Part shown: positions 5,940-41,120 of the stretch, one piece after another | Layout: every line of letters starts with the position of its first letter | Position numbering within the stretch: position 1 is the stretch's first letter | Virus record (IMG/VR): IMGVR_UViG_3300042922_000762 | Coordinates: 1-41,120 of that record | Origin: a virus | DNA: 41,120 nucleotides | Strand: one strand, 5' to 3' | Notes under the pieces: generated by a model | Told to the model about the DNA's origin: nothing | The model's database searches: none | Seen by the model: the letters and a program-made list of their open reading frames with translations, nothing else | Made by a program: the position numbers and the translations under genes

Positions 5940-5959
5940 GTCTTCTCCTTGGTTGGTCT

Positions 5960-7619: not shown

Positions 7620-7622
7620 GGG

Positions 7623-8066: not shown

Positions 8067-8092
8067 CTGGTGACTTCCTTTCGTGGGTTCGT

Positions 8093-8877: not shown

Positions 8878-8972
8878 GCGAGCACCGCCAGGCACCGGGA
8901 TCCTCGCGGCATCCGTCGTCGCCGAGCTCGCGGTCGGCCTCTTCTGCAGACCGTCGAGGCCGCCGCTCGCCG

Positions 8973-9123
8973 CTACGCAGCCCAGCGCGCAACGACGACC
9001 CAGCGCGGGACGGGGCGCTCTGCCGAGTACTCGAGCGGGGACTTCGTGGGCGACCGACACCCGGCGGGCTCGGACAGAGCGGCGGTGCAGCGCCTTCGGG
9101 GCGCGCAGCTGCATACGGTTCAT
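8973..9123 (-). pseudogene. Small ORF apparently split by one base
   Basis: ATG 9123 follows a GGAGCCACCG ribosome site and opens well (MNRMQLRAPKALHRRSVRAR). Coding-type third-position bias then moves to the +1 frame, which ends naturally with EYSAERPVPRWVVVARWAA and TAG at 8973-8975. Removing one base from the run of four G (plus strand 9037-9040) would join both parts into a protein of about 49 residues. This is either a frameshift mutation, a homopolymer error or chance. The stretch 8878-9173 holds nothing else I can support. Confidence 0.35.
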
Positions 9124-9173
9124 CGGTGGCTCCTGCGACTTCGGTGAGGGATCGGTGCTCGGTCGAGCGGGTG

Positions 9174-9401
9174 CTACTGAGGGAGGCCCGCCGGGGGCGT
9201 GACGTGGGGGACGTCGGTGGGGGAGTCGCCCCCGGCGGGTGTCTTGGAGGGCCGCGGCCGCGCGACGATCACGAGCAGCACGATCGGCGCGGCGATGACG
9301 ACCAGGTCCGCGCTGCTGAACCCGGGCACCAGCGCGGCGGGTGCGCACAGGGCGGCGACGATGACGACGAGCGCAGCAGCGACGATGCGGCGGGCGCTCA
9401 T
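9174..9401 (-). CDS. Small two-TM membrane protein
   Basis: 75 residues with two hydrophobic segments (about 5-26 and 33-48), and a Pro-rich polar tail (SPTDVPHVTPPAGLPQ). ATG 9401 overlaps the upstream TGA. Small membrane proteins in early lysogeny regions sometimes act in superinfection exclusion, but nothing in the sequence proves this. Confidence 0.6.
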   Translation of the reverse strand: MSARRIVAAALVVIVAALCAPAALVPGFSSADLVVIAAPIVLLVIVARPRPSKTPAGGDSPTDVPHVTPPAGLPQ

Positions 9402-9661
9402 GCCGACACCTCGACGCGCGAGGCGAGCAGCCAGGTGACGACGTCGTCGCGGGTGTACCGGATGAGGCTCGACCCCGGCAGGCGCAGGAAGCTGGGGCCG
9501 GTGCTGGCGTCACGCCAACGCTCGAGCGACTTCACCGACACCTCGAGCAGATCGGCGAGGGCCTTCGGTGACAGCACCGCCGGCAGATCCTCGAAGCCCG
9601 CCGGCACCTCGACCGGCTGCTGCATCTGCGCGCTCGGCAGCTGCGCTATCTCGGCGGTCAT
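9398..9661 (-). CDS. Excisionase/MerR-type HTH protein
   Basis: 87 residues. LSPKALADLLEVSVKSLERW at residues 30-49, then FLRLPGSSLIRYTRDDVVTW, is the winged helix-turn-helix plan of the excisionase/HTH_17 family: helix-turn-helix, wing, then RYxxDDVxxWL. It is the second gene of the lytic early operon, overlapping its neighbours. It could be a recombination directionality factor or an early regulator. A second protein of this type sits beside att (37773-38024) and is the better excisionase candidate. Confidence 0.75.
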   Translation of the reverse strand: MTAEIAQLPSAQMQQPVEVPAGFEDLPAVLSPKALADLLEVSVKSLERWRDASTGPSFLRLPGSSLIRYTRDDVVTWLLASRVEVSA

Positions 9662-9900
9662 GACGCGACCGGCGCTCGCTCGTCGACGGGGGTGATGACC
9701 TCGAAGATCGACACTCCGAAGTAGGTGGCGATCAGGCCGAGCTCGTCGATCGTGAAGGGGGTGGACAGCAGCAGTCGCCGCTTGAGGGTGCTGAGGGAGA
9801 TCCCGGTCTCCTCGGCCAGCTTCTCGACCGATTCGCGCCGGTCGGCGAGAATGGAGCGAATCGCTCGCGCGGCCTTGCCGCTCGGTGTGGAGTAGTTCAT
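9658..9900 (-). CDS. Cro-like XRE helix-turn-helix protein
   Basis: 80 residues. RRESVEKLAEETGISLSTLK is a clear XRE-type helix-turn-helix, followed by a short helical tail. It is the first gene leftward from the immunity region, divergent from the repressor, which is the classic Cro position. No ribosome site precedes ATG 9900. A TACCGT -10-like hexamer lies seven bases upstream, so it may be translated from a leaderless transcript. It probably binds the shared operators in 9901-9977. Confidence 0.8.
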   Translation of the reverse strand: MNYSTPSGKAARAIRSILADRRESVEKLAEETGISLSTLKRRLLLSTPFTIDELGLIATYFGVSIFEVITPVDERAPVAS

Positions 9901-9977
9901 GCGGACTACGGTAGTTCACGAGAACTGAAACAGGGCGCTATTTAGGCGTTTCGGTTCATATCTGACACGATAGAGCC
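9901..9977. promoter_or_regulatory. Divergent immunity control region with operators
   Basis: This 77-bp gap separates the Cro-like gene and the repressor. It contains the perfect inverted repeat AGTTC-N4-GAACT at 9913-9926 and a longer pair GAACTGAAAC (9923-9932) / GTTTCGGTTC (9948-9957) with one mismatch. TAGTTCA occurs at 9893-9899 and again at 9912-9918. The leftward -10 candidate TACCGT sits inside the first operator. The rightward promoter is less clear, near CATATCT at 9957-9963. The overlap of operators and promoters fits a repressor/Cro switch. Confidence 0.7.
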
Positions 9978-10448
9978 GTGACGAACTACGCGCCCAGCAT
10001 CATGTCCCGCGAGATCATCTCTCGCCTCCGTGGGCAGATCGCTCGATTCGACGTCAACCAGGCGGACCTCGCGGTCCTCTGTGACGTGAGCCAGTCCCAG
10101 TTCTCGAAGATCATCCGCGGCACTCGCCCCATGACCCTCGACCAGCTCGTCGTGATCTGCGACGCCCTCGCCATCGACCTTGGTCACCTCATGCGAGAGG
10201 TCGAGGACTTCCTTGGTGAGCGAGATCTCGGACAGGCGTCGCCGATCGTCTATGTCGAGGAAGGTGGCCGTCTCGACGAGCCCTACGAACGTGACGACAG
10301 CTGGCTCGACGACTGGGGGAAGGCCGCACGACGCCGACTGCACCCCGACAACATCGTCCACGGGCGCTTCGGTGTCGCACCCCCCGCCGAAGATGAGCTG
10401 GACGCCGTAGCCCGCGCCACCGACCCGGAGCCGACAGACGAGCAATGA
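9978..10448 (+). CDS. XRE-family phage repressor
   Basis: 156 residues. FDVNQADLAVLCDVSQSQFS near residues 24-43 followed by KIIRGTRPMTLDQL is a lambda-repressor-type helix-turn-helix. The C-terminal part is acidic (PPAEDELDAVARATDPEP) and has no autoproteolysis motif, so it is not a LexA/CI-type self-cleaver. The next gene overlaps by 4 bp and encodes an ImmA-like protease, suggesting that induction removes the repressor by proteolysis. The GTG start at 9978 lacks a ribosome site; ATG 10002 is an alternative. Confidence 0.85.
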   Translation: MTNYAPSIMSREIISRLRGQIARFDVNQADLAVLCDVSQSQFSKIIRGTRPMTLDQLVVICDALAIDLGHLMREVEDFLGERDLGQASPIVYVEEGGRLDEPYERDDSWLDDWGKAARRRLHPDNIVHGRFGVAPPAEDELDAVARATDPEPTDEQ

Positions 10449-10906
10449 CGACTACCATCGATGAGTACCTCGAGGATCTCGCCCGCCAGGGCGGCATCCG
10501 CATCGAGTACGCGCGCCTCCGCGACGGCCGCGACGGAGAGTCTGACGTCGAGCGGAAGATCATCCGGCTGCGCCCCGGGATGAACGCCCGCCTCCACCGC
10601 TGCGTTCTCGCACACGAGCTCGGGCACCACGCCCTCGGACATGCACCCACCCGATTCGGGCCCGTGCACGCGAAGCAGGAGCGTGCCGCCGAGGAGTGGG
10701 GCGCGCTGCGCCTCATCAGCCCCGCCGACTACCGGCACGTCGAAGAGATCCACACCGGCCACCTCGGCGCCATGGCGCTCGAGCTCGGCATCATGCGATC
10801 GACGCTCGAAGCGTTCCAGGCGCTGCTGCTGCGCCTCGGCGACACGGTCTACGTCCGCCCGAAGATGGGCGCCGGCAACTGGGCGCACCGCGAGGAAGTC
10901 GCCTAA
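10445..10906 (+). CDS. ImmA/IrrE-family metalloprotease
   Basis: 153 residues. HELGHHALGH (H57, E58, H61) is the zinc-protease helix, and ERAAEEWGALRLI downstream supplies the third-ligand region, as in ImmA/IrrE proteins. In ICEBs1 and related elements ImmA cleaves the element's ImmR repressor on DNA damage or quorum signals. The pairing with an upstream XRE repressor here is the same. ATG 10445 overlaps the repressor stop (ATGA), and the product's TAA overlaps the integrase ATG. The specific inducing signal is not visible. Confidence 0.88.
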   Translation: MTTTIDEYLEDLARQGGIRIEYARLRDGRDGESDVERKIIRLRPGMNARLHRCVLAHELGHHALGHAPTRFGPVHAKQERAAEEWGALRLISPADYRHVEEIHTGHLGAMALELGIMRSTLEAFQALLLRLGDTVYVRPKMGAGNWAHREEVA

Positions 10907-12216
10907 TGGCACGCGCCTGGATCACCGACCGGTGGGTGAAGGACGCCGTCGTCCCACTGCCCGACGGCAGCACCACGAAGATCAGCCCGACGAGCGCGCA
11001 GCTGCGCTCACTCAAGACGCTGCCCGAGCACTTCCGCGCCGCGAAGTTCGGGAAGGGCTCGAGGTGGATCGCCTGCTGGATCGAACCCGATGGCACCCAG
11101 AAACAACGCCTCTACCCGCGGCGCACCGACGCCGAAGCGTTCATCGCCTCGCTCGAGGACGACATCCGCTCCGACCGGTACATCGACCCCGCCGCACGCG
11201 AACAGACCTTCACGGCGATCGCCGAAGCCTGGCTCGCATCCAAGAACCGCATCAAGGACTCCACCTGGCGCCGCTACCGCCGCGAGCTCGACAACTACGT
11301 CCTCCCGAAATGGGGAAGCGTCGCCGTCGGCAGCATCACCCGCCCGCAGATCGACGCGTGGGTGCAGCAGCTCCGCGACGGCACCGCACCCCACGTGTTC
11401 GACAAGAACCAGCGCATCAAGCAGACCGCCCGCACACCCGTCCAGATGTCACCCGCCTACCTCGGGCACATCGTCCGCATCACCTTCGGCGGGGCGCTGC
11501 GCTACGCCGTCGCCGAGAGCATCATCGGCCGCAACCCCCTCGCGAAGGTCGAACTCCCACGCACCGAAGGCGACCTCGAGAACGACCTCCCGTCCCTCTC
11601 GTACCCCGACATCGAAGCCCTCGCCGACATGGCGCTCGAGCTCACCGGCCGCGCCACCGACCGCGTGCTGCTGCAGCTGCTCGCCTATAGCGGGCCCCGC
11701 ATCGGTGAAGCGACCGCGCTCAAGGTCAAGGATCTCGACGCGCCTCGCAACCGTGCACGCATTCACCGCACCTGGACGGTCGACCGCGAAGGCCGGCGCA
11801 AGCTCGGACCCGTCAAGACGTGGGAGAAGCGCTGGACCCCGATCCCCGCGTTCCTCATGGCCGAGCTCGTCGCCCTCACTGCAGGCCGCGACGCCGACGA
11901 CTTCCTGTTCACCACCGTCCGCGGCGCCGCCGTCGACGGCACCAACTGGTACAACCGCGTCTGGCTCAAGACCCGCGCAGCTGCAGGCCTCGCCGTCGCC
12001 ATGTCCGTCCACGACCTCCGCCACGTCGCCGCGACCAACGCGATCGCTGCCGGAGCCGACGTCAAGCTCGTGCAGCAGATGCTCGGCCACAAGGACGCCA
12101 CCGAGACCCTCAACACGTACGCGCACCTCTGGCCAGACCGTGTCGCCGAAGTCATCGCCGCCGTCGAGAAACGACGCACCGAAGCCCTCGCCGCAGCACA
12201 CCGACTCGCCGCCTGA
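10906..12216 (+). CDS. int: Tyrosine-type site-specific integrase
   Basis: 436 residues. An N-terminal arm-binding region, a SAM-like core-binding domain (about residues 100-210, TFTAIAEAWLASKNRIKDST) and a catalytic domain with R265 (SGPRIGE), H369/R372 (HDLRHVAAT), H395 (MLGHK) and nucleophile Y405 (LNTYAHLW) are all present, so the enzyme should be active. ATG 10906 overlaps the protease TAA by one base, placing int in the repressor operon. The candidate attP (37632-37668 core) is far away, which is unusual. Its arm-type sites are probably the paired 10-mers at 37482-37502 and 37747-37767. Confidence 0.95.
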   Translation: MARAWITDRWVKDAVVPLPDGSTTKISPTSAQLRSLKTLPEHFRAAKFGKGSRWIACWIEPDGTQKQRLYPRRTDAEAFIASLEDDIRSDRYIDPAAREQTFTAIAEAWLASKNRIKDSTWRRYRRELDNYVLPKWGSVAVGSITRPQIDAWVQQLRDGTAPHVFDKNQRIKQTARTPVQMSPAYLGHIVRITFGGALRYAVAESIIGRNPLAKVELPRTEGDLENDLPSLSYPDIEALADMALELTGRATDRVLLQLLAYSGPRIGEATALKVKDLDAPRNRARIHRTWTVDREGRRKLGPVKTWEKRWTPIPAFLMAELVALTAGRDADDFLFTTVRGAAVDGTNWYNRVWLKTRAAAGLAVAMSVHDLRHVAATNAIAAGADVKLVQQMLGHKDATETLNTYAHLWPDRVAEVIAAVEKRRTEALAAAHRLAA

Positions 12217-12294
12217 AACGCACCATTTGACACCGGAGTGTTGTCACCCCCTAACTTCAGTATCGGAACGGTTTCGCAAGACGAGACCAGGCGT

Positions 12295-12332
12295 CGAGAG
12301 CCCCGGATGAGCAACAGCTCCCGGGGCTCTCG
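12295..12332 (+). terminator. Hairpin after integrase
   Basis: A perfect 12-bp stem (CGAGAGCCCCGG, 12295-12306, with CCGGGGCTCTCG, 12321-12332) around a 14-nt loop lies 78 bp after the int stop. There is no U-run, but GC-rich hairpins without one are common terminators in high-GC bacteria. It would end the repressor-protease-int transcript. Confidence 0.65.
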
Positions 12333-12350
12333 TGCTCACCACCCCCCACT

Positions 12351-12568
12351 CTCGGCCGGGAGTAGAGCACCCAACGCGACCGCGCGCTATCGGTGGCGCG
12401 CGCCCGCAGCTCCTCCCGGCCGAGACCCCCCAACTGGTGTCAACGCCCCACGGCAGACCGGGGCGAAGGACTCCCACGACGCCCGCGACTTCCGGGCCAG
12501 GAGCACCTGCACCACCGAGAGGCGCCGGCACCCGCAAGGCCACGCGCACCGCACCGTCGGCGCCTCTC
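12351..12568. other. Two further large inverted repeats in the int-terminase gap
   Basis: A 12-bp perfect arm pair CTCGGCCGGGAG (12351-12362) / CTCCCGGCCGAG (12413-12424) encloses a 7-bp inner stem (CGCGCGC 12381-12387 / GCGCGCG 12396-12402). A second pair GAGAGGCGCCG (12517-12527) / CGGCGCCTCTC (12558-12568) has a 30-nt loop. Reading frames across this stretch are open by GC bias only and give low-complexity Pro/Arg products, so I call it non-coding. It could be a small structured RNA, stacked terminators or part of the packaging site. Confidence 0.55.
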
Positions 12569-12585
12569 AACACCAGCACGGAGAA

Positions 12586-12841
12586 CGCGCCCCCGAAACG
12601 CGCCCCCACCCCACACGCCGGGGGCGCGATATCCCACACGGGGGCGCGAAGGGGCGCGTTCCAAAACGCACAACGGACCCCCATCTAGCCCCGTAATCAC
12701 GCGGAACTACACACTCGGGGGCGCGATGGGGCGCGATATTTCCAGTTGGCACAGCTCTTTGATTAGTAACTAAGGGACTAGCTACCCCTTACATCGCGCG
12801 CGATCAGCCCGATTACCCATCACCAGCAAGATCGCGCCCCC
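12586..12841. repeat. Iterated GGGGCGCGAT-type repeats; cos / terminase-binding candidate
   Basis: GGGGGCGCGAT occurs at 12620-12630 and 12717-12727, with near copies at 12640-12650, 12651-12660 and 12728-12737. Inverted copies lie at 12586-12594, 12599-12607 and, exact, at 12831-12841. Also present are the palindrome ATCGCGCGCGAT (12793-12804) and a TAAGGG/CCCTTA dyad (12771-12776/12786-12791). The block sits just before the HNH and terminase genes, where cos and terminase-recognition sites usually lie. The role is inferred from position and iteration. Confidence 0.55.
12746..12772 (+). promoter_or_regulatory. Possible late-operon promoter
   Basis: An AT-rich island in an otherwise very GC-rich gap contains TTGGCA (12746-12751) and TAACTA (12767-12772), 15 bp apart, about 100 bp before the first late gene. 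The spacing is shorter than ideal. No other promoter-like sequence is evident between int and the packaging genes. Confidence 0.3.
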
Positions 12842-12866
12842 GACCACACCGGGAAGGGCAGCGCAC

Positions 12867-27566: not shown

Positions 27567-28553
27567 ATGTCTGACGTCAAGGGCGGCTACCAGCGCCCCT
27601 CTGCCACGAGCAAGATCAGCGACTCGTGGAACGGCCACCGCAACCGACCGAAGCCGAGCACCGAGCCCGGCACCGACTACCCCTGCGCCTACGGCTCCGC
27701 GATCTACGCGCCCGAAGACGGCACGGTCGTCGACCTCTCCTCGAGCAACGCCGGCGGCACCGGCCGCTTCGTCACCATCGACTTCGACGACGGACAGCGC
27801 GGCCGCGCGCTGCACCTGTCCCGTGTCCTCGTCTCCAAGGGCCAGCGCGTCAAGCGTGGCCAGGAGGTCGCGAAGTCCGGTGCGTCCGGCTTCGGCAAGG
27901 ACTGGGGATACGGGGCGCACGTGCACCAGACCCTGTTCCCGCGGCACGCCTATGTCTTCGGTCGCGACGCGACCCTCGACTTCGAGCGGTACGTCGGCGC
28001 CGACAACGACGGCCCCGGCGGATCCGGGGCGGGCACCTACTCGCAGATCGTCGCGAACGAGCAGAACTACCTGAACGCGGCGCAGGGCGAGAAGCTCGTC
28101 GTCGACGGCATCGCGGGCCCGCTCTACCGTGCCGCGGTGAAGCGGTACCAGGAGTACCTGCGCGGCCGCAGCTGGTACTCGGGACCGATCGACGGTGTCT
28201 GGGGCAACGGCACCCAGGACGGCCACGCGAAGCGGTACACCGAGTGGGCGGCGCAGACGCAGGCGCCTCCGTCGCCGCAGTTCCACAACGCCACGGTGCG
28301 CGACCTCGCGTCGCTGCCGAACACGCGAGGCCTGCAGAAGGTCGCGAAGCTCTACGGCTACAAGGGCGCGCTCGACAACCAGTTCGGTGCTGGCTCGCAG
28401 GGTGGCTTCCAGCGGTTCCTCGACCAGAACTACGGCGGATCTCTTCCGGCCTGGCTGCGCGCCAAGTACGGGTACGTCGGCAACGACCAGTGGGGCCCCA
28501 ACATGGCAGCCGCCGCGACTCGCGCCGACACCGCCAACTGGGCGGCGCTCTAA
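27567..28553 (+). CDS. Endolysin: M23 peptidase with peptidoglycan-binding repeats
   Basis: 328 residues. The N-terminal 140 residues form a lysostaphin-type peptidase: EPGTD (E33-D37), ALHLS (H83) and GAHVHQ (H118, H120). The first zinc ligand, usually His of HxGxD, is Glu here. Two binding-type repeats follow (VVDGIAGPLYRAAVKRYQEY; TRGLQKVAKLYGYKG), giving cell-wall targeting. There is no signal peptide, so release depends on the holin. It starts the lysis cassette, and its TAA overlaps the ATG of a tiny membrane protein. Confidence 0.9.
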   Translation: MSDVKGGYQRPSATSKISDSWNGHRNRPKPSTEPGTDYPCAYGSAIYAPEDGTVVDLSSSNAGGTGRFVTIDFDDGQRGRALHLSRVLVSKGQRVKRGQEVAKSGASGFGKDWGYGAHVHQTLFPRHAYVFGRDATLDFERYVGADNDGPGGSGAGTYSQIVANEQNYLNAAQGEKLVVDGIAGPLYRAAVKRYQEYLRGRSWYSGPIDGVWGNGTQDGHAKRYTEWAAQTQAPPSPQFHNATVRDLASLPNTRGLQKVAKLYGYKGALDNQFGAGSQGGFQRFLDQNYGGSLPAWLRAKYGYVGNDQWGPNMAAAATRADTANWAAL

Positions 28554-28690
28554 TGCGCGGCCAGGGTCCGCGCCACGCGGGGCCGCGTCCTCACGCCTCG
28601 TGGTGGCGCGGCCCCTGGCCACCCAGCATCCTGCTCGTCGTCTTCGGGGGAGCGCTCGTCTGGGAGCTCTCCTGGGCGCTTCCCTGCTGA
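28553..28690 (+). CDS. Tiny one-TM protein in the lysis cassette
   Basis: 45 residues, ATG overlapping the endolysin stop. A basic N-terminus (MRGQGPRHAGPRPH) is followed by a Trp-rich turn and one hydrophobic segment (PPSILLVVFGGALVWELSW), ending in PC. Size, overlap and position suggest a holin accessory or pinholin-like protein, but there is no sequence match I can name. Confidence 0.55.
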   Translation: MRGQGPRHAGPRPHASWWRGPWPPSILLVVFGGALVWELSWALPC

Positions 28691-28703
28691 ACGGAGGGTG
28701 AGG

Positions 28704-29090
28704 GTGGGCGAACCCGAATCGATCGAGATCAAGCTCGCGCGGCTCGACGAGCGCACAAAGGGCACGGCCGACGACGTCACCGAGATCAAGCTCAACATGG
28801 CCACGCGCAGCGACCAGGCGCGCGTCGACGAGCGGATCCGAGATCTCACCGGCGCGCTCGAGCGCGAACGCGCCGAACGTGTCGCTGCCGTGGACGCCGA
28901 GAAGGCCGAACGCATCGCCGCAGACGAGAAGGAAGCGACCGAACGCAAGGCCGTCGCCGGCCGATTGCAGATCGTCGAGGACCGCATGGAAGCCCGAAAG
29001 TACAACGTCGGGATCTCCATCATTCTGTCCGCAGTCGGGGCCTTCCTCGGCGTGATCGCCATCGCGTTCCGACCGCTGTTCGGGGGGTGA
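28704..29090 (+). CDS. Coiled-coil tail-anchored protein (XhlA-like)
   Basis: 128 residues from GTG 28704, six bases after GGAGG. Residues 10-95 are a continuous charged helix with a heptad character ([20 protein letters not shown]), then one C-terminal membrane segment ([20 protein letters not shown]). This matches the plan of haemolysin XhlA-type proteins that work with holin and endolysin. GTG 28698 is too close to the ribosome site to be the start. Confidence 0.65.
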
Positions 29091-29094
29091 CGAC

Positions 29095-29700
29095 ATGACC
29101 CGCGCGAACCGCTCCCGCCTCGTCTTCGTCATCCTCGCCGCGGTGCTCTCTCTCGCACTCGCCGCGCTCGCGACATTCACGATCATCAACCTCGCGCAGC
29201 GCGTCGCAGCAGCGAACGATCGCAACGCGGCGCAATCCGAGCAGATCGACGGGCTCCTCGCCGACGTCCACGCGTCGCAGGAGAACGCGCAGCGCCTCTA
29301 CGACCAGTTGCTGTCGCTCGGCGAGTCCCCGGAAGGCGACAACCCGGACGACATTGTCACCGGCCCCGCCGGACAGACCGGCGCGCGAGGCCCGCAAGGC
29401 GACACCGGGGCGCCCGGCCCGATCGGCCCCATCGGCCCCGTCGGCCCCACCGGCGAGACCGGCAGCAGCGGTGACAGCGGCACGTCCGGATCCGCCGGCC
29501 CTGCAGGCCCCCAGGGTGAGCCCGGCGCACCCGGACCGCAGGGAGCACAGGGCGAACCCGGACCCGCGGGCCCCACCGGCCCGCCCGGCCCCACCTGCCC
29601 GGACGGGTACTCGCTGCAGCTGCTCACCGTGCTCGTCATCGACCCGGATACGGGTCTCCCCACCAACCAGCCCGCAGCCCTCTGCGTGCCGACGACCTGA
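29095..29700 (+). CDS. Membrane-anchored collagen-like protein
   Basis: 201 residues. A basic N-terminus and one TM helix (about 9-32) are followed by a helical stalk, then an uninterrupted run of 26 Gly-X-Y triplets (residues 90-167) and a C-terminal domain bounded by two cysteines (C168 and near the end). It is placed between the XhlA-like protein and the holin, where Gram-negative phages have spanins. It may anchor to or bridge the cell wall, or be carried on the virion. The function is unknown. Confidence 0.65.
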
Positions 29701-29710
29701 GGAGGTCACC

Positions 29711-30211
29711 ATGCTCACCAATCTCACCAACGCAACCTGGTGGAAGGACGCCGCGCTGCGGGCCCTCTACACCGCCCTCGCGATCGCGCTGCCCTACCTA
29801 GGGGCTGCGTTCGTCGCCGACGTCCCGTGGGTCACCATCGCGCTCACGGCCTCGCTCGGCTTCCTCGCCTCGCTGGTCACCAGCGTCGCCGGGCTGCCCG
29901 AAGTCGCCGGCGTCAACCTGCCCTGGTGGCTCGCCGCGGTCGAGCGCGTCGTCAAGACGTTCGCGCAGTCCCTCGCCGCAGGCTTCATCGGCGCCACCCT
30001 CATCACGGACGTCGACTGGGCCTTCGTGCTGCAGGCGGCCGCGCTGGCGGCTCTGACGTCGCTGGTGCGCCTCATCCTGGCCACCCTGCCCTCTGACCCC
30101 ACTCGCGTTCCCATCGACGCAGGAGAGGTCACAGCGGGCACCGTCGTGAACATCACCACGGTCCAGGATCCCGTGACGGTCGCGACCGAGATCCGCCGCT
30201 CGCTCGGCTGA
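29711..30211 (+). CDS. Holin
   Basis: 166 residues from ATG 29711 with a GGAGGTCACC site. Hydrophobic segments lie near 15-36, 38-61, 75-100 and 106-128, followed by a polar tail, consistent with r1t-type and actinophage holins. It would form the membrane lesion that frees the endolysin. Adjacent lysis genes support the call. Confidence 0.75.
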   Translation: MLTNLTNATWWKDAALRALYTALAIALPYLGAAFVADVPWVTIALTASLGFLASLVTSVAGLPEVAGVNLPWWLAAVERVVKTFAQSLAAGFIGATLITDVDWAFVLQAAALAALTSLVRLILATLPSDPTRVPIDAGEVTAGTVVNITTVQDPVTVATEIRRSLG

Positions 30212-31438: not shown

Positions 31439-31870
31439 ATGCCTACGATCACAGGTCCGATCCTCGACTCGACCGGCCGTCCCGCGAACGGGCTGCTACG
31501 GGTGCGTGCTTCGCGCCCGTTCGACATCGGCGCCGGCCATGTCACGCAGGCAGTCGGATGGGCGACGGTCCGCGACGGCATTCCGTACCTCACATCCGGC
31601 GCATGGTCCCTACCGTCAACGCCCGACGGGGTGTACCTGGAGCTCGAGCAAGACCTCGACGGCGAAGAGACCAGCCGCTTCACGCTCGCGGTCCCCGACG
31701 TTCAGTCGATGTCGTACAGCGAGCTGCTCTTCAACCGGGGCGGCGGCCAGGGTGGCGCGAACCCGTACTGGTGGGATCTGACCGGCGGCCTCGACTTTCC
31801 CCCGACCGCCGTCGAAGGCGACCTCGGATACGACAACGACAACGGCACCGTGTGGAGGTACGAACTGTGA
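31439..31870 (+). CDS. Small tail-tip protein
   Basis: 143 residues from ATG 31439 after ACAGGGGG. It is beta-rich (GPILDSTGRPANGLLRVRAS, WATVRDGIPYLTSGAWSLPS) and ends in a polar loop. Proteins of this size between hub and fibre genes are usually baseplate adaptors. It ends in TGA overlapping the fibre gene's GTG. Confidence 0.65.
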   Translation: MPTITGPILDSTGRPANGLLRVRASRPFDIGAGHVTQAVGWATVRDGIPYLTSGAWSLPSTPDGVYLELEQDLDGEETSRFTLAVPDVQSMSYSELLFNRGGGQGGANPYWWDLTGGLDFPPTAVEGDLGYDNDNGTVWRYEL

Positions 31871-33435
31871 GCAAGATCCCGATCGGCAACATCAAGGGCC
31901 CGAAGGGCGACAAGGGCGATGCCGGCCCGAAGGGCGACAAGGGCGACACCGGCGCGGCCGGATCGAACACGATCCCGACCAATCAGGCGATCGCGGAAGC
32001 CGTGACGATCGATGGCCCGGCGAAGACCGCGCTAGAGGAGGCCATTGCTGGGGCGGTGGCGGACGCGATGTCCACGGAGGAGATTGTCCAGCGCCCCACC
32101 GGATTCCCCGCATTCTCGCGCTCGCTGCTGATTCGGCGTGACCGGCTGGGGCAAGTCTCCTGCGACTACGACATGACCGCAGACCGTCCTGTGGTGGGCG
32201 TGACCTACTACACCGCTCCCGGCGCATCTGGTGCTGCAGCCGGGACGGTCGCCGCACCGACGCACTACCAGACCGCAAAGAACAAGGCCGATATCGGCAC
32301 CCTCGCCGTTACCTATGGTGAGTACTTCGCCGACGACACTGACGGGCTGATCTCCAAAGACATCAACATCGTCGGCATCCCCGACGCTTTCGGCAACCGT
32401 CCCCTGGTCACTGGATGGGCCAACCCCGCCCATCTGACGTGGGCGCTGCACGACGCGAATATCTACAAGGCGACGCGCACGGGCGGCACCGGCGCCTGGG
32501 GCAATGGTGTGCAGTTCGTGATCGACAAGCGCAACGCGTACCTCACCGCTTGGGGCGACCATGCCGTGTACACCAAGCGAGCGACGCTCGCCGAGGTCAC
32601 AGGCCCGGGCCAGTGGACGTACGTTGCGGGCGAGCTGTTCGTTTGGGCACTCGGCAACGCCAACCTCGTCACGGACGCGTCGTTCATGCGCGCATCAAAG
32701 GCCGGGTTCACCGGCATCGTCAAGAGCGGCTCCCGGCGGGTCTATGTGGAGCGAGTTGAGGTGCAGGGCGCTGGATGGGGACCGGTGCCGGGTTCGGGGA
32801 CAAACCCGGACATCAATGCGGTCCTCGATACTCAGGGCGGGACGGTCGGCGGCATCTCTCTAGCTCGTGACGTTCGTGTCCGATACTGCCCGCTTTCGGG
32901 CGTGCGGCCGAAGGGGGACACCTGGGCAGCGTTCCAGCGTGTTGAAGTCTCGTCTTGCACGGGTGACGGCATCGGCTATCAGTCAAGCGGCGGCATCGTC
33001 ATGCAGGCACTCGAAATCGACTGCTATGGGCACAACCTCTGGGCCAGCGATCCCGCCGCCATGAACATCAACGCCAGCACCGGGCATAACGATGTGCGGA
33101 TCGTCCGCATCAACACCCGAGGGGACACTACGCAGGGCCCGATTTTCGCCGACGTAAACGGCGCGATGTCCTGGAATCTGCGATGCAGCGCGGTCAACTC
33201 GGTATCGCCTTCCGGTCAGGGCGACGTCGGTTTCCAGGCCCTCAACCAGTCTCCATACAGCACCACGAAGGTATGGGTGGAGGACTGCTACGTCGAGCGA
33301 GCGAACCTTGCGTTGAACGCGGGCGGGACGACCCCATATGTCTCGGAGATCCACACACGTCGCGTGCAGTACGGCGCAGAAGTCGCGAACGAAACCTATC
33401 TCACCGGCGCAGGCAGCAGCATCACGCCCTATTGA
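31867..33435 (+). CDS. Tail fibre/spike with collagen-like neck and beta-helix
   Basis: 522 residues from GTG 31867. A short Gly-X-Y stretch (residues 10-31, GPKGDKGDAG twice) forms a trimer neck. Residues 100-522 have the rung-like repeats of a right-handed beta-helix (VRVRYCPLSGVRP, VEVSSCTGDGIGYQ, VRIVRINTRGDTTQ, VEDCYVERANLAL). This is the receptor-binding protein and may degrade surface polysaccharide. From about 32100 the DNA is visibly less GC-rich than the upstream structural genes, which suggests exchange of the receptor module. Confidence 0.8.
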   Translation: MSKIPIGNIKGPKGDKGDAGPKGDKGDTGAAGSNTIPTNQAIAEAVTIDGPAKTALEEAIAGAVADAMSTEEIVQRPTGFPAFSRSLLIRRDRLGQVSCDYDMTADRPVVGVTYYTAPGASGAAAGTVAAPTHYQTAKNKADIGTLAVTYGEYFADDTDGLISKDINIVGIPDAFGNRPLVTGWANPAHLTWALHDANIYKATRTGGTGAWGNGVQFVIDKRNAYLTAWGDHAVYTKRATLAEVTGPGQWTYVAGELFVWALGNANLVTDASFMRASKAGFTGIVKSGSRRVYVERVEVQGAGWGPVPGSGTNPDINAVLDTQGGTVGGISLARDVRVRYCPLSGVRPKGDTWAAFQRVEVSSCTGDGIGYQSSGGIVMQALEIDCYGHNLWASDPAAMNINASTGHNDVRIVRINTRGDTTQGPIFADVNGAMSWNLRCSAVNSVSPSGQGDVGFQALNQSPYSTTKVWVEDCYVERANLALNAGGTTPYVSEIHTRRVQYGAEVANETYLTGAGSSITPY

Positions 33436-33498
33436 GTAGTTGCGGCGCCTGTTGAGAGGCAGAGCCTGGTTCGCGAGTGCCACCGACCACGGGTCGAC

Positions 33499-34938
33499 CT
33501 ACAAAGTTGCAGGGGAGGAACGCCGATCTGCTGCTACGGCGGTCGGTCGGCGCTTCTTCTGTTTAAGCAGGAGGAAGACGCGGCGCGCGATCTCGATCAC
33601 AAGGAGGTAGGTGAGCAGCCGCGACGCGAGCCTGAGGTTGTACTGAGTCATCTGGAGCGCGAAGAGAGCAACGAGTCCCATCACGACTCCCGCGTACAGC
33701 AGACCGCCGGAACTCACCCGCTCTCGGACGATCGCTTCGAACCATGCGAGTAGAACCGCCGCACCGCCTATCACCGCGATTACGGCTCCCCAGCCCACGT
33801 TCCCCAGCTCGCCGATGCCCGCCATCGGCGTGTAAGCATTCAGGCGAAGGCGCTGCGAGATGTCGTAGAAGCCTGCGGAGTCGCCGGGAAGAGGATTTAG
33901 GGAGACGGCGATGTCCGACCAGCTCACGTAGGCGCCGCCGTAAGCGGATTGTCCGATGATTGGGAAGCCGATTAGGACGTTATTCAAGGCACTGAGGTAG
34001 TCGGCGGCGAACCAGTCGTGCGCCAAGAAGATGGCGGTGTACGGCACTATCCCGTGCGTCACGCTCGAGCGGAAGTCCAGGGGGAGCGGGAGGAGGAGGA
34101 AGGTCAGGGCACCGCCCAGTATCAGCCCCCACCGTGCCTTGCGGGTATTGCCCGCAAGGAAGACACCGAGGGCGAAAAGGACCGGGATGAGTGCGAACCG
34201 GCGGGATCCGAACGAGCCGATCATCAAGACGTAGGCGATGAGGAGCATCCAGCCAAGTACGCGCGTGCCGCCAGTGCCGCGAGCTACGACGAACCCGAGG
34301 AGCACCACAGCGAGAGTTACGAGCTGCGTGATCACTGACGAGGCGAAAGAGCCCTGCTCGCCCGACAGGTACGCGGAGCGCTCGATGAATGGCTGTAGTC
34401 CCGAAGTTGCGAGGTAGTAGACCAACGGCAGTGCAAGCAGGATGAGGATCACGGGATGCGGTTTCGGTGCTGTCCATGTCAGCTTCGAAGGCCGAGACAG
34501 CCGCCCTTCACGGCGGTTCGTGAACAGTACGGTCGCGAATGACCCCACGACGATGACGATTGTGGCGCTCACTGACACGAGCACGAGTGTCCGCAGCGCA
34601 GTCGCCTCATCGAGCCGGATGATGATCGATGCTCCGCCTTGCCCGTAGAGGGCATCCCGCAACAGATATCCGAACGTTCCGATCATCCCGATGATTAGTC
34701 CGGTCGCGGCCACGGGCGAGATATAGAACGGGTTCAGCAGCGGCCGGCAAACGAACCATGCAAGGAACGGCAGGAGCACGAGCAGCAGCACCAACGCGGT
34801 GCGCGCATCGCTGCCCGAAAAAAGCAGCCACGCTGCCAGGGCAGCGACGGCGAGCACCGACGCGAATACCTTGAGCGCCCCCATCCGCGGCGCCTCCGTG
34901 GTCGGTTGACCGATCGCCGATCCACGCTTCGCCCACAT
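33499..34938 (-). CDS. Wzy-like polysaccharide repeat-unit polymerase
   Basis: 479 residues with about 12 hydrophobic segments and one large loop (about 290-380) containing DSAGFYDISQRLRLNAYTPM and then GIGELGNVGWG, the typical external loop of O-antigen/oligosaccharide polymerases. GSFGSRRFAL near 241-250 resembles the conserved arginine region of the family. It would polymerise surface glycan units at the membrane. It is transcribed against the late operon, ATG 34938 lies 11 bp after the hydrolase stop, and base composition is less GC-rich than phage core genes. It is probably a lysogenic conversion gene; specificity is unknown. Confidence 0.75.
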   Translation of the reverse strand: MWAKRGSAIGQPTTEAPRMGALKVFASVLAVAALAAWLLFSGSDARTALVLLLVLLPFLAWFVCRPLLNPFYISPVAATGLIIGMIGTFGYLLRDALYGQGGASIIIRLDEATALRTLVLVSVSATIVIVVGSFATVLFTNRREGRLSRPSKLTWTAPKPHPVILILLALPLVYYLATSGLQPFIERSAYLSGEQGSFASSVITQLVTLAVVLLGFVVARGTGGTRVLGWMLLIAYVLMIGSFGSRRFALIPVLFALGVFLAGNTRKARWGLILGGALTFLLLPLPLDFRSSVTHGIVPYTAIFLAHDWFAADYLSALNNVLIGFPIIGQSAYGGAYVSWSDIAVSLNPLPGDSAGFYDISQRLRLNAYTPMAGIGELGNVGWGAVIAVIGGAAVLLAWFEAIVRERVSSGGLLYAGVVMGLVALFALQMTQYNLRLASRLLTYLLVIEIARRVFLLLKQKKRRPTAVAADRRSSPATL

Positions 34939-34949
34939 GGTGAGCGAGT

Positions 34950-35819
34950 CTAGTGACCCAGCGATTCGTCCAAGAACGCGACCATCCGCTCGGGTTGGAA
35001 GGCGGACTGATTACCGTGGTCGCCGATGACCTGAACGACTTCGACGGCCGCGCCGTTCTGCTCGTAGATCCGCGAGCACTCTGTCGTGTTCGTGTCCATG
35101 GGTACGGCGTGATCATTCGGCGAGTGGAAGAAAAGCATGGGGAGACCATCGACACCCGCCGGGATGACGGGACTCAGTTCTGGGATGGACACCCACTCGG
35201 CGACGCCGTAGGCATCGAGCGCTGCTGGGAAAGTGGCAGCAACACTGTCGAGGTTGCACACAGGGTAGATGCCGGCCCACGCGGCGACATCCGGGAGTGT
35301 GTCAATGAGCTGTAGAGATGCAAGCCCGCCCATGGACTGGCCGATGAGAACGTTGGACGTGGTGCCGGCCTCATTCGTCGCCCAGTCGGCGAGAGCCTCG
35401 TAGGCGAGCACGCTGAATTCGTTTCCCCAGCCGTTCCCGGTGCCGTCTGTGCTCGCGATCGTGTAGCCAGCGTCCAGTAGCTGGTCACGCATTCCCACAT
35501 GATGTTCTTCGGACAGAATCTCTTCGACGTTGCCCCCTTGCCCATGCACCCAGAGAACGAGAGCCCCGTTTTGCTCGGGCGGGATCGCGACAGCGACATC
35601 GTCCTCGCCAATAGTGCTGCGCTCAACCGTGGATGCGGCGATCCCGCGTTCAGTCGGGAGCAGTGACGAATCGGGCGGCCCGATCTGTTGCCAGACGAGA
35701 GCTGGAACGTCGTTCGAGATTGCGACCGCCCCGCCGGCGATCACTAGAGTCGCTGCGGTCACGGCCGCGCCGATCACGATCTTTCGTCGTGCCCCCATGC
35801 GGTAGCCCGGCGCGGTCAC
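34950..35819 (-). CDS. Secreted or anchored alpha/beta-hydrolase
   Basis: 289 residues from GTG 35819 (overlapping the upstream stop; ATG 35798 is possible). A hydrophobic segment near 14-33 acts as signal or anchor. The fold markers are VHGQGG (oxyanion, 91-96), GQSMGG (nucleophile S162), SPND (D236) and GDHGN (H268), a complete Ser-Asp-His triad. It resembles esterases of the feruloyl/polyhydroxybutyrate type. Beside a Wzy-like gene it may remove acyl groups from the cell-surface glycan; the substrate is inferred. Confidence 0.8.
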   Translation of the reverse strand: MTAPGYRMGARRKIVIGAAVTAATLVIAGGAVAISNDVPALVWQQIGPPDSSLLPTERGIAASTVERSTIGEDDVAVAIPPEQNGALVLWVHGQGGNVEEILSEEHHVGMRDQLLDAGYTIASTDGTGNGWGNEFSVLAYEALADWATNEAGTTSNVLIGQSMGGLASLQLIDTLPDVAAWAGIYPVCNLDSVAATFPAALDAYGVAEWVSIPELSPVIPAGVDGLPMLFFHSPNDHAVPMDTNTTECSRIYEQNGAAVEVVQVIGDHGNQSAFQPERMVAFLDESLGH

Positions 35820-36004
35820 GTCTCTTCCTCTCGCTGGAAGAACGCGTCGAGTGCTGCCCAAACCGTCAGAGGTATCGCGAGGAGCGCGATCGGTCCGATG
35901 ACGGTCGTGCCGCCCAGCGCGATCAGCAGGCCGGCGAAGACCATGCCGCCCGCCGCCGACCACTGCAAGGGCGACAGCTCCTTGCGCATGTGCCACCGAC
36001 CCAT
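35816..36004 (-). CDS. Small two-TM protein of the conversion cassette
   Basis: 62 residues with two hydrophobic helices (about 15-31 and 34-51) and an acidic end (FFQREEET). First gene of the leftward cassette; its TGA overlaps the hydrolase GTG. ATG 36004 follows the -10-like TACCCT by six bases, without a ribosome site, so the mRNA may be leaderless. It may be an exclusion or assembly factor for the two downstream products. Confidence 0.6.
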   Translation of the reverse strand: MGRWHMRKELSPLQWSAAGGMVFAGLLIALGGTTVIGPIALLAIPLTVWAALDAFFQREEET

Positions 36005-36010
36005 GGGTTC

Positions 36011-36016
36011 AGGGTA
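36011..36016 (-). promoter_or_regulatory. Leaderless-type -10 for the conversion cassette
   Basis: On the minus strand TACCCT (TANNNT type) ends seven bases before the ATG at 36004, the spacing of leaderless Actinobacterial promoters. There is no convincing -35. Confidence 0.4.
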
Positions 36017-36067
36017 GCCAATGACCGGTGAGCCGCCCGCCGAACCAGCAAAGCAGGAACTTAGTTC

Positions 36068-36103
36068 AGCCCCCGGCTGCCTCTCACGAGGTGGCCGGGG
36101 GCT
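36068..36103 (+). terminator. Strong hairpin terminator
   Basis: AGCCCCCGGC (36068-36077) pairs perfectly with GCCGGGGGCT (36094-36103), followed by TTTCC. It lies upstream of the conversion cassette and before the right-end small genes; read rightward it would stop late transcription. Confidence 0.65.
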
Positions 36104-37075: not shown

Positions 37076-37243
37076 ATGACCGTCGACTACCTCGGCTACT
37101 TCTTGGCCGGCGCGCAGCTCAGCATCGCCGCCATGTGGGAGAGCTTCGTGGAGAATCCTTTGCCGTGGCTCGGGATCGGCGCCGCGTTCGTCGGCGCCGC
37201 AGTGCTGAACGCCACCCCTAAGCGTCGACGTCGGCGCCCGTGA
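37076..37243 (+). CDS. Small membrane protein
   Basis: 55 residues, with one clear hydrophobic stretch (PWLGIGAAFVGAAVLN), a weaker one at the start (YLGYFLAGAQLSIAAMW), and a basic tail of Arg. Its TGA overlaps the GTG of the DUF3263 gene, so the two are co-translated. Function unknown. Confidence 0.55.
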   Translation: MTVDYLGYFLAGAQLSIAAMWESFVENPLPWLGIGAAFVGAAVLNATPKRRRRRP

Positions 37244-37473
37244 CGACGGCTGACCTTCTCGCGTTCGAAGTTCAGTGGGGGAAGCACACGGGCTGGAAGG
37301 AAGAGGCGATCCGCGCCCGCTTCCAGATCCCGCCGGCACGGTTCTACCAGCTGCTCGGCCGCGCGATCGACACCTCGGAAGCGCTCGAGCTCGACCCGAT
37401 GCTGGTGCACCGACTCCGCCGGATCCGTGACGAACGGCGCGCGGTACGTGCTCGTCGGACGAGTGCCGCCTGA
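37240..37473 (+). CDS. DUF3263 family protein
   Basis: 77 residues. LLAFEVQWGKHTGWKEEAIR, ARFQIPPARFYQLLGRAID and LDPMLVHRLRRIRDERR match the short DUF3263 family of Actinobacteria, a likely helix-turn-helix protein normally encoded on chromosomes. Start GTG 37240 overlaps the upstream stop. It is the last gene before att, so it may have been acquired from a host or serve as a regulator of lysogeny. Confidence 0.75.
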   Translation: MTTADLLAFEVQWGKHTGWKEEAIRARFQIPPARFYQLLGRAIDTSEALELDPMLVHRLRRIRDERRAVRARRTSAA

Positions 37474-37481
37474 CGCGGCCG

Positions 37482-37502
37482 CGTCCAACATTCGTCCAAC
37501 AT
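37482..37502 (+). repeat. Paired integrase arm-type sites, left of att core
   Basis: CGTCCAACAT occurs at 37482-37491 and 37493-37502, starts 11 bp apart, so both face the same side of the helix. The same pair recurs right of the core at 37747-37767 in the same orientation, as expected for P and P' arms bound by the integrase N-terminal domain. Confidence 0.65.
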
Positions 37503-37631
37503 GTCGGAGTACGTCGGTGTTCTTCGGTGTCTGCCGCTGTCGGTGTGCGGAGGCCGGTTTAGACCTGGTCGCGCGGCTTATTTGAGGGCGGGTGTCTGTC
37601 CCTGTCGGTGCGTGGCGAACCGGCCGAGGTA

Positions 37632-37668
37632 GTCAAGGGGTCGCAGGTTCAAATCCTGTCATCCCGAC
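37632..37668 (+). other. att core: 3' end of a tRNA-Pro(GGG)
   Basis: 37 bp reproduce the end of a tRNA from the 3' side of the anticodon stem (GTCAA) through variable loop and T-arm (GCAGG-TTCAAAT-CCTGT) to the acceptor 3' strand (CATCCCGAC). The matching 5' acceptor (CGGGATG) is not upstream, so this is not a whole tRNA. It closely matches Actinobacterial tRNA-Pro(GGG) as I remember it. Flanked by arm repeats on both sides, it is an attP-like or tandem-prophage junction. Confidence 0.75.
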
Positions 37669-37746: not shown

Positions 37747-37767
37747 CGTCCAACATGCGTCCAACAT
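37747..37767 (+). repeat. Paired integrase arm-type sites, right of att core
   Basis: CGTCCAACAT at 37747-37756 and 37758-37767, again 11 bp apart and in the same orientation as the left pair. The distance to the core is 78 bp, compared with 129 bp on the left. Confidence 0.65.
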
Positions 37768-37772
37768 GACGA

Positions 37773-38681: not shown

Positions 38682-39370
38682 GGGGTGTTCCTCTCGGTGG
38701 ATGCGGCCGCGGCCGCGGTGTAGAGCTGGCCGCAGACCTTGCAGCGGCCGACCTGGGTGGGCTTCGGGGATCCGTTCGCGCTGTCGATCCAGTCGACGAT
38801 GACGGCGCACTCGCCGCAGATCCCGCAGATCCGCGGCCGCGCGCGTCGGGCGGACTCGCCGCCGCGGTGGATGCCGCGCAGCCGGCGGATGAGCGCGAAC
38901 ATGGTGTCGGCGTGCGCGTCGAGCTCGCGGATCGGTTCGATCAGGTCGGCGTGGTCGATGAGCCAGCCGATCGTGACGAGCGCGACGCTCTTCGCCGACA
39001 GCGGGTCCGCATCCGGCCGCGGCGCGACCGCCGTCCACGTGCGCGCGTCGCGGGCGATCGACGGGCGATCGCCCGCCTGCAGCTGCGGGCCGATCCACGC
39101 GACCACGGCGCGCGTGTACGACACGACCCACGTCCACAGCTCGTCCGCGTCGACACCAGCGCCGACGTCGGTGATCGGGACGTGGCTGATATACCCGCCG
39201 CCGCTCACGCGCTCCTGGATCCGCGCGGCGGACAGCAGCGTGGTGCTGAGGGTGCTGAGCGACTCGATCAGGGGCGGCACCTGGTCGAGGTGCCACTCGA
39301 ACGCGCGGCGCCACTCGCGCGCGCCGGCTTCGGGGTCGATCGCGTCGAGGGGGATGAGGGACGGCGTCAT
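38678..39370 (-). CDS. Early protein with C-terminal zinc ribbon (copy 2, complete)
   Basis: 230 residues. A helical N-terminal 170 residues (WRRAFEWHLDQVPPLIESLS, SAKSVALVTIGWLIDHADLI) precedes a zinc ribbon (CGICGEC ... CKVCGQLYT). ATG 39370 overlaps the stop of the Cys/HTH gene directly, without the ASCH gene that intervenes in copy 1 (1-169). The helical bundle plus ribbon suggests a nucleic-acid-binding early protein; the function is not known. Confidence 0.7.
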   Translation of the reverse strand: MTPSLIPLDAIDPEAGAREWRRAFEWHLDQVPPLIESLSTLSTTLLSAARIQERVSGGGYISHVPITDVGAGVDADELWTWVVSYTRAVVAWIGPQLQAGDRPSIARDARTWTAVAPRPDADPLSAKSVALVTIGWLIDHADLIEPIRELDAHADTMFALIRRLRGIHRGGESARRARPRICGICGECAVIVDWIDSANGSPKPTQVGRCKVCGQLYTAAAAASTERNTP

Positions 39371-40581
39371 GCGGTCACCTCGAGCGCGAGGATCCGCGTC
39401 GCCTTCTCCGCCTCGATCTGCTGCGCGAGCTCGCCCTTCCGACCAGGGTCGCTGCGGCCGTAGATCAGGTCGCCGATGCGGCTGCGGTGGACATCGGCGC
39501 CGGCGGCGATCGCGTCCATCGTCATGCCCGCGGCCATGAGCGCGCGCACGTGCATGCGGACCCGCTCGGCGTCGACGCGCGGCGCGATCTCCGGGATGCC
39601 TGCCTCGCGACGTCGCCGGCGTTCCTCGGCGAGCGACGCATCCGCGCACGAAGGCGTCGACGGGCAGAGCTTCCTCGAGCGGCATCCGAGCTGGTACCCG
39701 TAGGCGGTGCCGTGGTGCTCGGCGGGGATCTCTTCGGCGTTGGTCCGCCGCGACGCCATCCAGGCGCGGTGGTACTCGCGCTGGGCGCGTCTGCAGTCGT
39801 CACAGCGGCATCCGCGCGCGTACGACGCGTTCGTGCCGTGGCCGAGCACCTGGCGCGGCGCACGGGGCTCCCGCGGGGCGCGCGGGGCGCTGCGCTTCAC
39901 GATCGCGGGCAGCTGCAGGTCTCGACGCACGATGCCGGCGTACGCCCGAGTGATCCCGAGCTCCGCGGCGACCTCGGCGTCCGTCATGCCCTCGGCGTTG
40001 AGTCGGCGGACGCCAGCCTCGACCTCGGCGCGCTGGCGGTGGCGTCGCTTCGGCTGCTCGGGCTTCTGCGGCTCGGCGGCGGCGACGAACTCGTCGAACG
40101 CGGCCTGCGCGCGATCGCGGTCGGCGATCGCCGCCTCGACGGCTCGCTCGGCGCCGCGGAGAACCGCGTAGAGATCCTTCCGCTGCGCACGCCAGGCCTC
40201 GCGCGCCTGCTGCCACGCCTCGAGCGGATCGACCGCGGGGACCGGTGCCGGGGCGGGCTTCCGTGCCGCGGCCGCGGGCCGCTCGGCCTTCGGCTTCGCC
40301 GGTGCCTTCGGGCGCGGTGCGGGCGTGCCCTTCCGGGCTGCGCGGGCGGCTGCCTTGTCGCGCTGCTCGGCGCCGGCGCGGTCTTCTTCGTCGCGGCGGA
40401 GGATCTCCTCGAGCGGGACGCCGGCGTCGACGAGGCGCTTGAAGCTGTAGTCGCCGCTGTATCGCCGGTAGACGTCGCGGCACGGGAGCGGCGCCGGGCA
40501 GTTCGCGTCGCGGCATCCGCCGCGGTACCCGTTGACGGTGCCGTGGGGGAAGCCGTCCTCGAGGCGGTCTGCAGCGCCCAT
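39367..40581 (-). CDS. Multi-module Cys-rich / HTH protein (copy 2)
   Basis: 404 residues, homologue of 588-1808. All three HGTxxxYxxGC modules and both helix-turn-helix stretches are kept, while the linker shows most of the differences (for example GTPAPRPKAPAKPKAERPA, two residues shorter). Conservation of the modules against a variable linker supports their functional importance. ATG 40581 overlaps the upstream stop; its own TGA overlaps ATG 39370. Confidence 0.75.
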   Translation of the reverse strand: MGAADRLEDGFPHGTVNGYRGGCRDANCPAPLPCRDVYRRYSGDYSFKRLVDAGVPLEEILRRDEEDRAGAEQRDKAAARAARKGTPAPRPKAPAKPKAERPAAAARKPAPAPVPAVDPLEAWQQAREAWRAQRKDLYAVLRGAERAVEAAIADRDRAQAAFDEFVAAAEPQKPEQPKRRHRQRAEVEAGVRRLNAEGMTDAEVAAELGITRAYAGIVRRDLQLPAIVKRSAPRAPREPRAPRQVLGHGTNASYARGCRCDDCRRAQREYHRAWMASRRTNAEEIPAEHHGTAYGYQLGCRSRKLCPSTPSCADASLAEERRRRREAGIPEIAPRVDAERVRMHVRALMAAGMTMDAIAAGADVHRSRIGDLIYGRSDPGRKGELAQQIEAEKATRILALEVTA

Positions 40582-40931
40582 CAGTCGGCCTGCCCGTCGA
40601 CGCGAGCGACGTGGATGGGGCCGCCGGTGAACGGGCGGACCAGGTGCCGGAAGCCGTGCGTGCTGTGCTCGTCGGGAACGACCGCACCACGGCAGACGGT
40701 GCAGGTCGGGATAACGCCGACGTCAGCCGCGAGGATGGCCGCGGCCGCGGTGGCCGTGCCCTGTTCGGCGAGGTACCGCTCGCCCTCGCCGGCGGCCTGC
40801 AGGATCGCGTTGGCGACGTCGCGGGCCTCGTCGACGTTGAGCGGCAGGGTGACCTGAATGTCGATGTAGCCGTCGTCGTCGACGTCGACGGTGGCGACGA
40901 GCTGCTCGACGGATCGCGTGATGGTCTTCAT
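40581..40931 (-). CDS. Small early protein with CxxC motif (copy 2)
   Basis: 116 residues, homologue of 1808-2158, with the same GGAGATCACC site. Changes cluster in residues 52-80 (YLAEQGTATAAAAILAADVG), while the N-terminal VDVDDDGYIDIQV and the C-terminal GFRHLVRPF are identical, suggesting two constrained ends around a flexible centre. Confidence 0.7.
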   Translation of the reverse strand: MKTITRSVEQLVATVDVDDDGYIDIQVTLPLNVDEARDVANAILQAAGEGERYLAEQGTATAAAAILAADVGVIPTCTVCRGAVVPDEHSTHGFRHLVRPFTGGPIHVARVDGQAD

Positions 40932-40942
40932 GGTGATCTCCT

Positions 40943-41120
40943 TCAGAACGGGGGCTGGTCGGGGTAGACGACCTCGTCGGGGACGAGATCGAGGGCGGGT
41001 GCGTCCCAGGTGTGGCCGCAGCGGTGGCGAGGTGAGATCTCGCCGTCGACGGGCTTCCGCGGCCACCAGGGGGTGCGCTGGCTGGTGATGGTCTTGCCGG
41101 CGTGCTCGTGGATCTGCCAC
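40943..41120 (-). CDS. Zinc-ribbon-like early protein (copy 2, 3' part)
   Basis: The last 58 codons of the homologue of 2170-2511, running off the right edge. It ends in the same VVYPDQPPF and keeps HRCGHTWD. The upstream part (with CPRC) is outside the window. Confidence 0.65.
   Translation of the reverse strand, partial: WQIHEHAGKTITSQRTPWWPRKPVDGEISPRHRCGHTWDAPALDLVPDEVVYPDQPPF

Follow-up and report, generated by a model that had tools for sequence, protein, structure and literature searches.

A candidate surface-glycan conversion cassette beside the tail fibre gene of a temperate phage

In Pseudomonas phage D3, a Wzy-beta polymerase, the peptide Iap and an O-acetylase (Oac) together convert the host (Newton 2001, cited in PMC4815439 and PMC9658991), and D3 lysogens resist superinfection (PMC4815439; PMC9658991). 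Conversion by Salmonella phage epsilon15 depends on a phage polymerase and an inhibitor of the host polymerase (PMC4815439), and in phages of Gram-negative bacteria conversion genes near int-att are familiar (PMC8787464). Tail proteins that act as receptor-deacetylating esterases have also been documented (PMC10743462; PMC13123978). For Gram-positive bacteria, TarP, encoded by an S. aureus prophage, changes the surface glycan of its host (PMC9650247).

Here we describe a cassette of three genes in a virus record of 41,120 bases from IMG/VR (the window, by which we mean the whole stretch of DNA that was analyzed). An earlier note on this DNA had read the cassette as a surface-glycan conversion system and stated that no three-gene system of this type was described in Actinobacteria. 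In the open-access literature, our coverage of which is incomplete, we found no polymerase-type converter in Actinobacteria, but the kind of system is known from the three-component example of D3.

Phage genome and attachment site

The two ends of the window overlap, with positions 1–180 and 585–2347 matching positions 39202–41120 at 94–98% identity and about 400 bases (181–584) absent from the right-hand copy. This makes it probable that the genome is circular or permuted, with a length of about 39.2 kb. The overlap (1–2347 and 39202–41120) looks as if such a genome had been closed with reads from two strains.

The phage is temperate, as marked by a repressor gene (9978–10448, plus strand), which is accompanied by genes for an ImmA-like protease (10445–10906) and a tyrosine integrase (10906–12216, plus strand). 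The terminase, capsid, tape measure, lysis and tail genes run rightward after the integrase, with lysis and holin-like genes at positions 27567–30211. At 37635–37668 (plus strand) there is a 34-bp core that many Microbacterium genomes have, base for base, at the 3' end of tRNA-Pro(GGG). Doubled CGTCCAACATG repeats of the arm type are found on either side of it: CGTCCAACAT(G/T) as the left pair at 37482–37503 and CGTCCAACATG as the right pair at 37747–37768 (both on the plus strand). The core with its flanking repeats is likely the att site. It served to reach the Microbacterium genomes used below, but the same 34 bp are also present in other genera, so that the assignment of the host to Microbacterium is based on phage relatives and prophages. 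The att-like core and arm repeats are located approximately 12.5 kb from the integrase gene when counted on the circle; a non-coding stretch of 650 bp with GGGGCGCGAT repeats follows the integrase (10906–12866 region) and could represent another att region.

Three coupled genes and their products

The cassette comprises, on the minus strand, an ORF for a small hydrophobic protein of 62 amino acids with one or two transmembrane (TM) segments (36004–35816), an ORF of 288 amino acids for an exported alpha/beta-hydrolase esterase (35816–34950) and an ORF of 479 amino acids for a protein that we read, by context, as a Wzy-type polysaccharide repeat-unit polymerase (34938–33499). The stop codon of the first overlaps the start of the second (GTGA) and 11 nt separate the second from the third, so that the three ORFs look coupled; homologues back two of the three (esterase and wzy) as real genes. 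For the polymerase, an alternative ATG at 34884 with GGAGG upstream provides a better ribosome-binding site than the start of the 479-residue form, and the resulting 461 residues are more likely to be its true length. The cassette runs counter to the late genes and lies between the tail fibre gene (31867–33435, plus strand) and the tRNA-Pro core. The earlier note had thus correctly placed three leftward, coupled genes at 33499–36004, between the fibre and att.

Its observation of a lower GC content was confirmed as well: the esterase and wzy genes, at 0.63, have the lowest values among the 42 genes longer than 300 bp in the genome, and their GC3 is 0.74–0.77, whereas the median gene reaches 0.87. 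The tail fibre gene has the third-lowest GC content of the same 42. Upstream of the cassette, a candidate −10 box TACCCT of the TANNNT type (36016–36011, minus strand) lies 6 nt upstream of the first ATG and is much like the TACCGT in front of the cro-like gene at 9900. The leaderless promoter previously proposed here is plausible from this box and its spacing, but a sigma-70 scan gave no match and there is no −35 element.

Hydropathy analysis of the large protein predicts about 11 TM segments with a long loop between about residues 290 and 385, which agrees with a Wzy-type topology (about 10–14 TM segments and a large extracytoplasmic loop). The protein has no match in Pfam, NCBIfam or PHROGs, including the Wzy and O-antigen polymerase models, and no relative among 50,697 phage records; direct scans with single window proteins gave nothing usable among viral or genome contigs. 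A search of the PDB with the polymerase profile returned weak SecE matches only, and structure prediction, which the earlier note had suggested for all three proteins, gave for the polymerase an AlphaFold model with a pLDDT of 37 on a two-row alignment. Relatives were found in host genomes: five among 346 Microbacterium genomes, with 25–50% identity over the full alignment (the best in genome G153), and two more in a profile search of 400 family genomes.

All seven host relatives reside in surface-polysaccharide loci. Their neighbors, in varying combinations, include GDP-mannose 4,6-dehydratase, fucose-synthase-like proteins, glycosyltransferases, Wzz/Wzc-like proteins, Bac_transf and a flippase; these families were checked by search for three loci (L125, L126, and L135) and read by eye for the others. 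The L135 cluster encodes a Wzz protein, the initiating Bac_transf, the polymerase homologue, a GT2 and a Polysacc_synt flippase; the homologues occupy the polymerase position in Wzx/Wzy-dependent clusters. One homologue matches the O-antigen polymerase Wzy family PF14296, weakly (4.6e-4). A further relative (32% identity over residues 187–477) is encoded by L130, a contig of an unrelated temperate phage that shares no DNA match with the window, in an antisense gene between a tail protein with a GDSL esterase and another tail gene (region 7443–10298 of the contig). Given the seven host clusters, we take the protein of 461 or 479 residues to be most likely a Wzy-type polymerase, on the strength of its context and its predicted 11 or so TM segments rather than of family membership. 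The earlier designation as Wzy-like stands on topology and context, but is not backed by any family model for the window protein itself.

It is conceivable that the large protein is instead another polytopic enzyme of glycan export, such as a ligase, flippase or acyltransferase. The lack of a direct family match, with a single homologue matching PF14296 and weakly so, would fit this. In L135, however, the homologue sits between the initiating transferase, which it follows directly, and the GT2, and the flippase, Wzz/Wzc and acyltransferases are already encoded separately in that cluster, which leaves the role of polymerase vacant. We regard a function other than repeat-unit polymerization as quite unlikely.

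The 288-residue hydrolase has an N-terminal export segment, which may be a signal or an anchor, and a GQSMGG/Asp/His arrangement, as expected for the secreted hydrolase of the earlier note. Pfam matches to Abhydrolase models are weak, the best (Abhydrolase_6, 23.6 bits) falling below the gathering score of 26.3. Its best relative, with 43% identity, is gp34 of Arthrobacter phage Seahorse, an antisense lipoprotein esterase adjoining the tail genes and near the integrase, with which the predicted catalytic residues Ser161 (in GQSMGG), Asp235, and His267 are conserved. Further relatives are the Seahorse esterase gp33 from the tail region, whose C-terminal part shows the similarity, and an esterase encoded immediately after the tail fibre of a sister phage (L155, see below). 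Both match a PHROG of virion proteins. No relative was detected at E ≤ 1e-10 in the 346 Microbacterium genomes, in a search run without a positive control. With its relatives among tail and virion esterases, the hydrolase looks like a tail-type esterase that carries an export signal. In Seahorse (positions 5881–8789), the two related esterases are arranged back to back on opposite strands, gp33 as a large protein of the tail operon and gp34 as an exported lipoprotein, an arrangement that suggests that a putative conversion gene arose as a copy of a tail esterase gene.

The 62-residue protein is mostly hydrophobic. Two helices are plausible, in line with the two-TM protein described before, but only one is strongly predicted. 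Searches of phage, IMG/VR and host genome sequences yielded no credible relatives. Apparent relatives in IMG/VR proved to be the hydrophobic stretch of a tape-measure protein (contig L138 scored the same as these and was not read separately), and host matches were at chance level across 342 genomes. Alignment against shuffled sequences gave no resemblance to Wzz, and no homology to any inhibitor was found. That the protein inhibits the host polymerase, as Iap does in D3, is a guess by analogy. The homologue search that had been proposed for all three proteins thus succeeded for the polymerase and the esterase but not for this one.

An exchangeable slot between conserved flanks

We identified sister phages by searching with the minor tail protein, which is 88% identical in L154, 86% in L155 and 88% in L173, a prophage in a Microbacterium genome. 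More distant relatives include L156/L175 (about 51–55%; judged by gene content, one and the same prophage) and L174. The region corresponding to positions 33436–36100 is bounded by conserved genes, namely the minor tail gene with the 143-aa gene at one end and a gene matching PHROG 5316 (37240–37473, plus strand) at the other. Its content is different in each sister phage examined, as expected of a moron or conversion slot.

The slot of L173 encodes an O-antigen ligase/polymerase of the Wzy_C family (PF04932, 7e-12) that is not homologous to the polymerase of the window. L154 carries a GT4 glycosyltransferase (1e-18) and a trypsin-like protein, whereas L155 carries the esterase mentioned above, a Wzx-like protein of 499 residues (NCBIfam WZX_like, 1e-10, under the curated cut-off) and an O-antigen acetylase (7.5e-40). 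An O-acetyltransferase (2e-40) is present in L156/L175, and the slot of the sister-type prophage L174 is empty. Five of the six slot versions among these relatives hence contain glycan genes. Several more distant relatives have no glycan gene at this position, and among such prophages only L183 shows an acyltransferase-like gene, recognized by eye, at a comparable place.

The tail fibre of the window matches PHROGs of tail fibres and hydrolases. The fibres of the window, L154, L155, and L173 have approximately their first 60 residues in common, and their C-termini are unrelated. Sisters therefore differ both in the part of the fibre that would bind the receptor and in the slot, where unrelated glycan genes occupy a single place. 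Taken together, the comparison points to an exchangeable slot for receptor conversion beside the fibre gene, an association observed in a handful of phages.

Three further observations concern the sisters. In L154, the integrase is found just beyond the slot, and the trypsin-like gene behind the GT4 (5239–6090) encodes a peptidase domain (PF13365, 5e-9). On the reverse complement of L173 (4119–5641), an ORF of 68 residues with one C-terminal TM segment convergently overlaps the end of the Wzy_C gene and would give a second case of a small membrane protein next to a phage polymerase; mimicry of Wzz by its product was considered, but the alignment was not convincing when compared with shuffled sequences.

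Proposed role and comparison with known systems

We consider it probable that the cassette is a lysogenic-conversion module in an exchangeable slot, which would alter the host surface glycan and block superinfection. The cassette genes would be on in the lysogen, as their strand, position and promoter-like box suggest. The Wzy-like protein would polymerize the lipid-linked repeat units of the host in a manner of its own, either in place of the host polymerase or in competition with it. Acyl groups would be stripped from the surface glycan by the exported esterase, and the 62-residue membrane protein would probably assist, perhaps as a block on the host polymerase. Fibres of this phage and its relatives would no longer fit the glycan altered in this way, and the lysogen would resist superinfection.

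A role in remodeling the host surface glycan, as put forward earlier, is supported by three lines of evidence: the relatives of the polymerase in host Wzx/Wzy-type clusters, those of the esterase among tail esterases, and the differing glycan genes in the slots of the sisters. Judged from sequence comparison, the predicted conversion role is well supported, and from orientation and position we infer superinfection exclusion and expression in the lysogen. Counting against conversion are the missing Wzy-family match, the missing homology of the 62-residue protein to inhibitors or Wzz, the restriction of the exact trio to the window among the sequences searched, the empty slot of L174 and the several distant relatives whose slot shows no glycan gene. 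The co-occurrence check suggested in the earlier note did not reveal the trio in any other phage or genome searched, and the idea of a fixed three-gene system is not supported: in L130 the wzy relative is found without counterparts of its two cassette partners, and the same holds for the esterase in Seahorse.

The genes could alternatively be passengers from host clusters, kept at the prophage edge and serving the host (in capsule variation, desiccation or grazing) rather than the exclusion of phages. The nearest relatives of the polymerase are host genes and the low GC content indicates recent acquisition, but the slot adjoins the fibre gene and is repeatedly filled with glycan genes, and the relatives of the esterase are tail proteins. 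We think this explanation unlikely; moreover, benefit to the host and exclusion are compatible with each other. It would also be possible to regard the esterase and the small TM protein as aids late in infection, for lysis or particle release (for instance by stripping receptors so that progeny avoid debris), next to an unrelated polymerase gene. The relationship to virion esterases and the potentially holin-like character of the small hydrophobic protein would agree with such a function, of which we think very little, as the cassette is opposite in strand to the late operon, its genes are coupled together, and lysis and holin-like genes are already present at 27567–30211.

A broader version of the conversion hypothesis holds that a group of temperate actinobacterial phages shares a modular receptor slot, in which each fibre comes with a matching glycan module (a polymerase, flippase, glycosyltransferase, acetylase or exported copy of a tail esterase), that the 62-residue protein inhibits the host polymerase, and that a D3-like three-part seroconverter evolved independently in Gram-positives. 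As a whole this is speculative, and we hold it to be rather doubtful. If the conversion reading is right, temperate phages of Gram-positive soil bacteria would also rewrite the linkages of surface polysaccharides. The slot would then pair each fibre with a candidate glycan change that defeats this very fibre, making receptor prediction testable from sequence.

O-acetyltransferase seroconverters (Sf6/Sf101 type; PHROG O-antigen acetylase) have counterparts in the slots of L155 and L156, but they acetylate, whereas polymerization and de-esterification are predicted for the cassette. TarP likewise belongs to a prophage of a Gram-positive and alters the host surface glycan, but is a glycosyltransferase acting on teichoic acid and not a polymerase/esterase unit. 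Seahorse gp33/gp34 resembles the cassette in its antisense exported esterase (the 43% identical gp34) by the tail genes and near the integrase; gp34 differs by its lipoprotein signal, its function is putative, and Seahorse has no polymerase. As in epsilon15, a phage polymerase would replace that of the host, although the epsilon15 polymerase has a Wzy_C domain, which is absent from the window protein but present in that of the sister prophage L173.

The likeness to D3 comprises a temperate phage with a Wzy polymerase (in the window, by context), a glycan-modifying enzyme and a small membrane peptide. The phage of the window has a Gram-positive-type host, however, and an alpha/beta-hydrolase esterase in place of the O-acetylase of D3; its three genes are coupled on one strand, whereas oac of D3 is reported on the other; and the small peptide of D3 is a Wzz mimic, whereas the 62-residue protein does not resemble Wzz. 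No sequence match between the window proteins and D3 was found in the phage collection. With a hydrolase for an acetylase, a small protein that does not resemble Wzz and no detectable homology, the cassette would be D3-like in its working and yet not a member of the D3 type. The D3-type kind of system is already known; the exact trio is seen only here.
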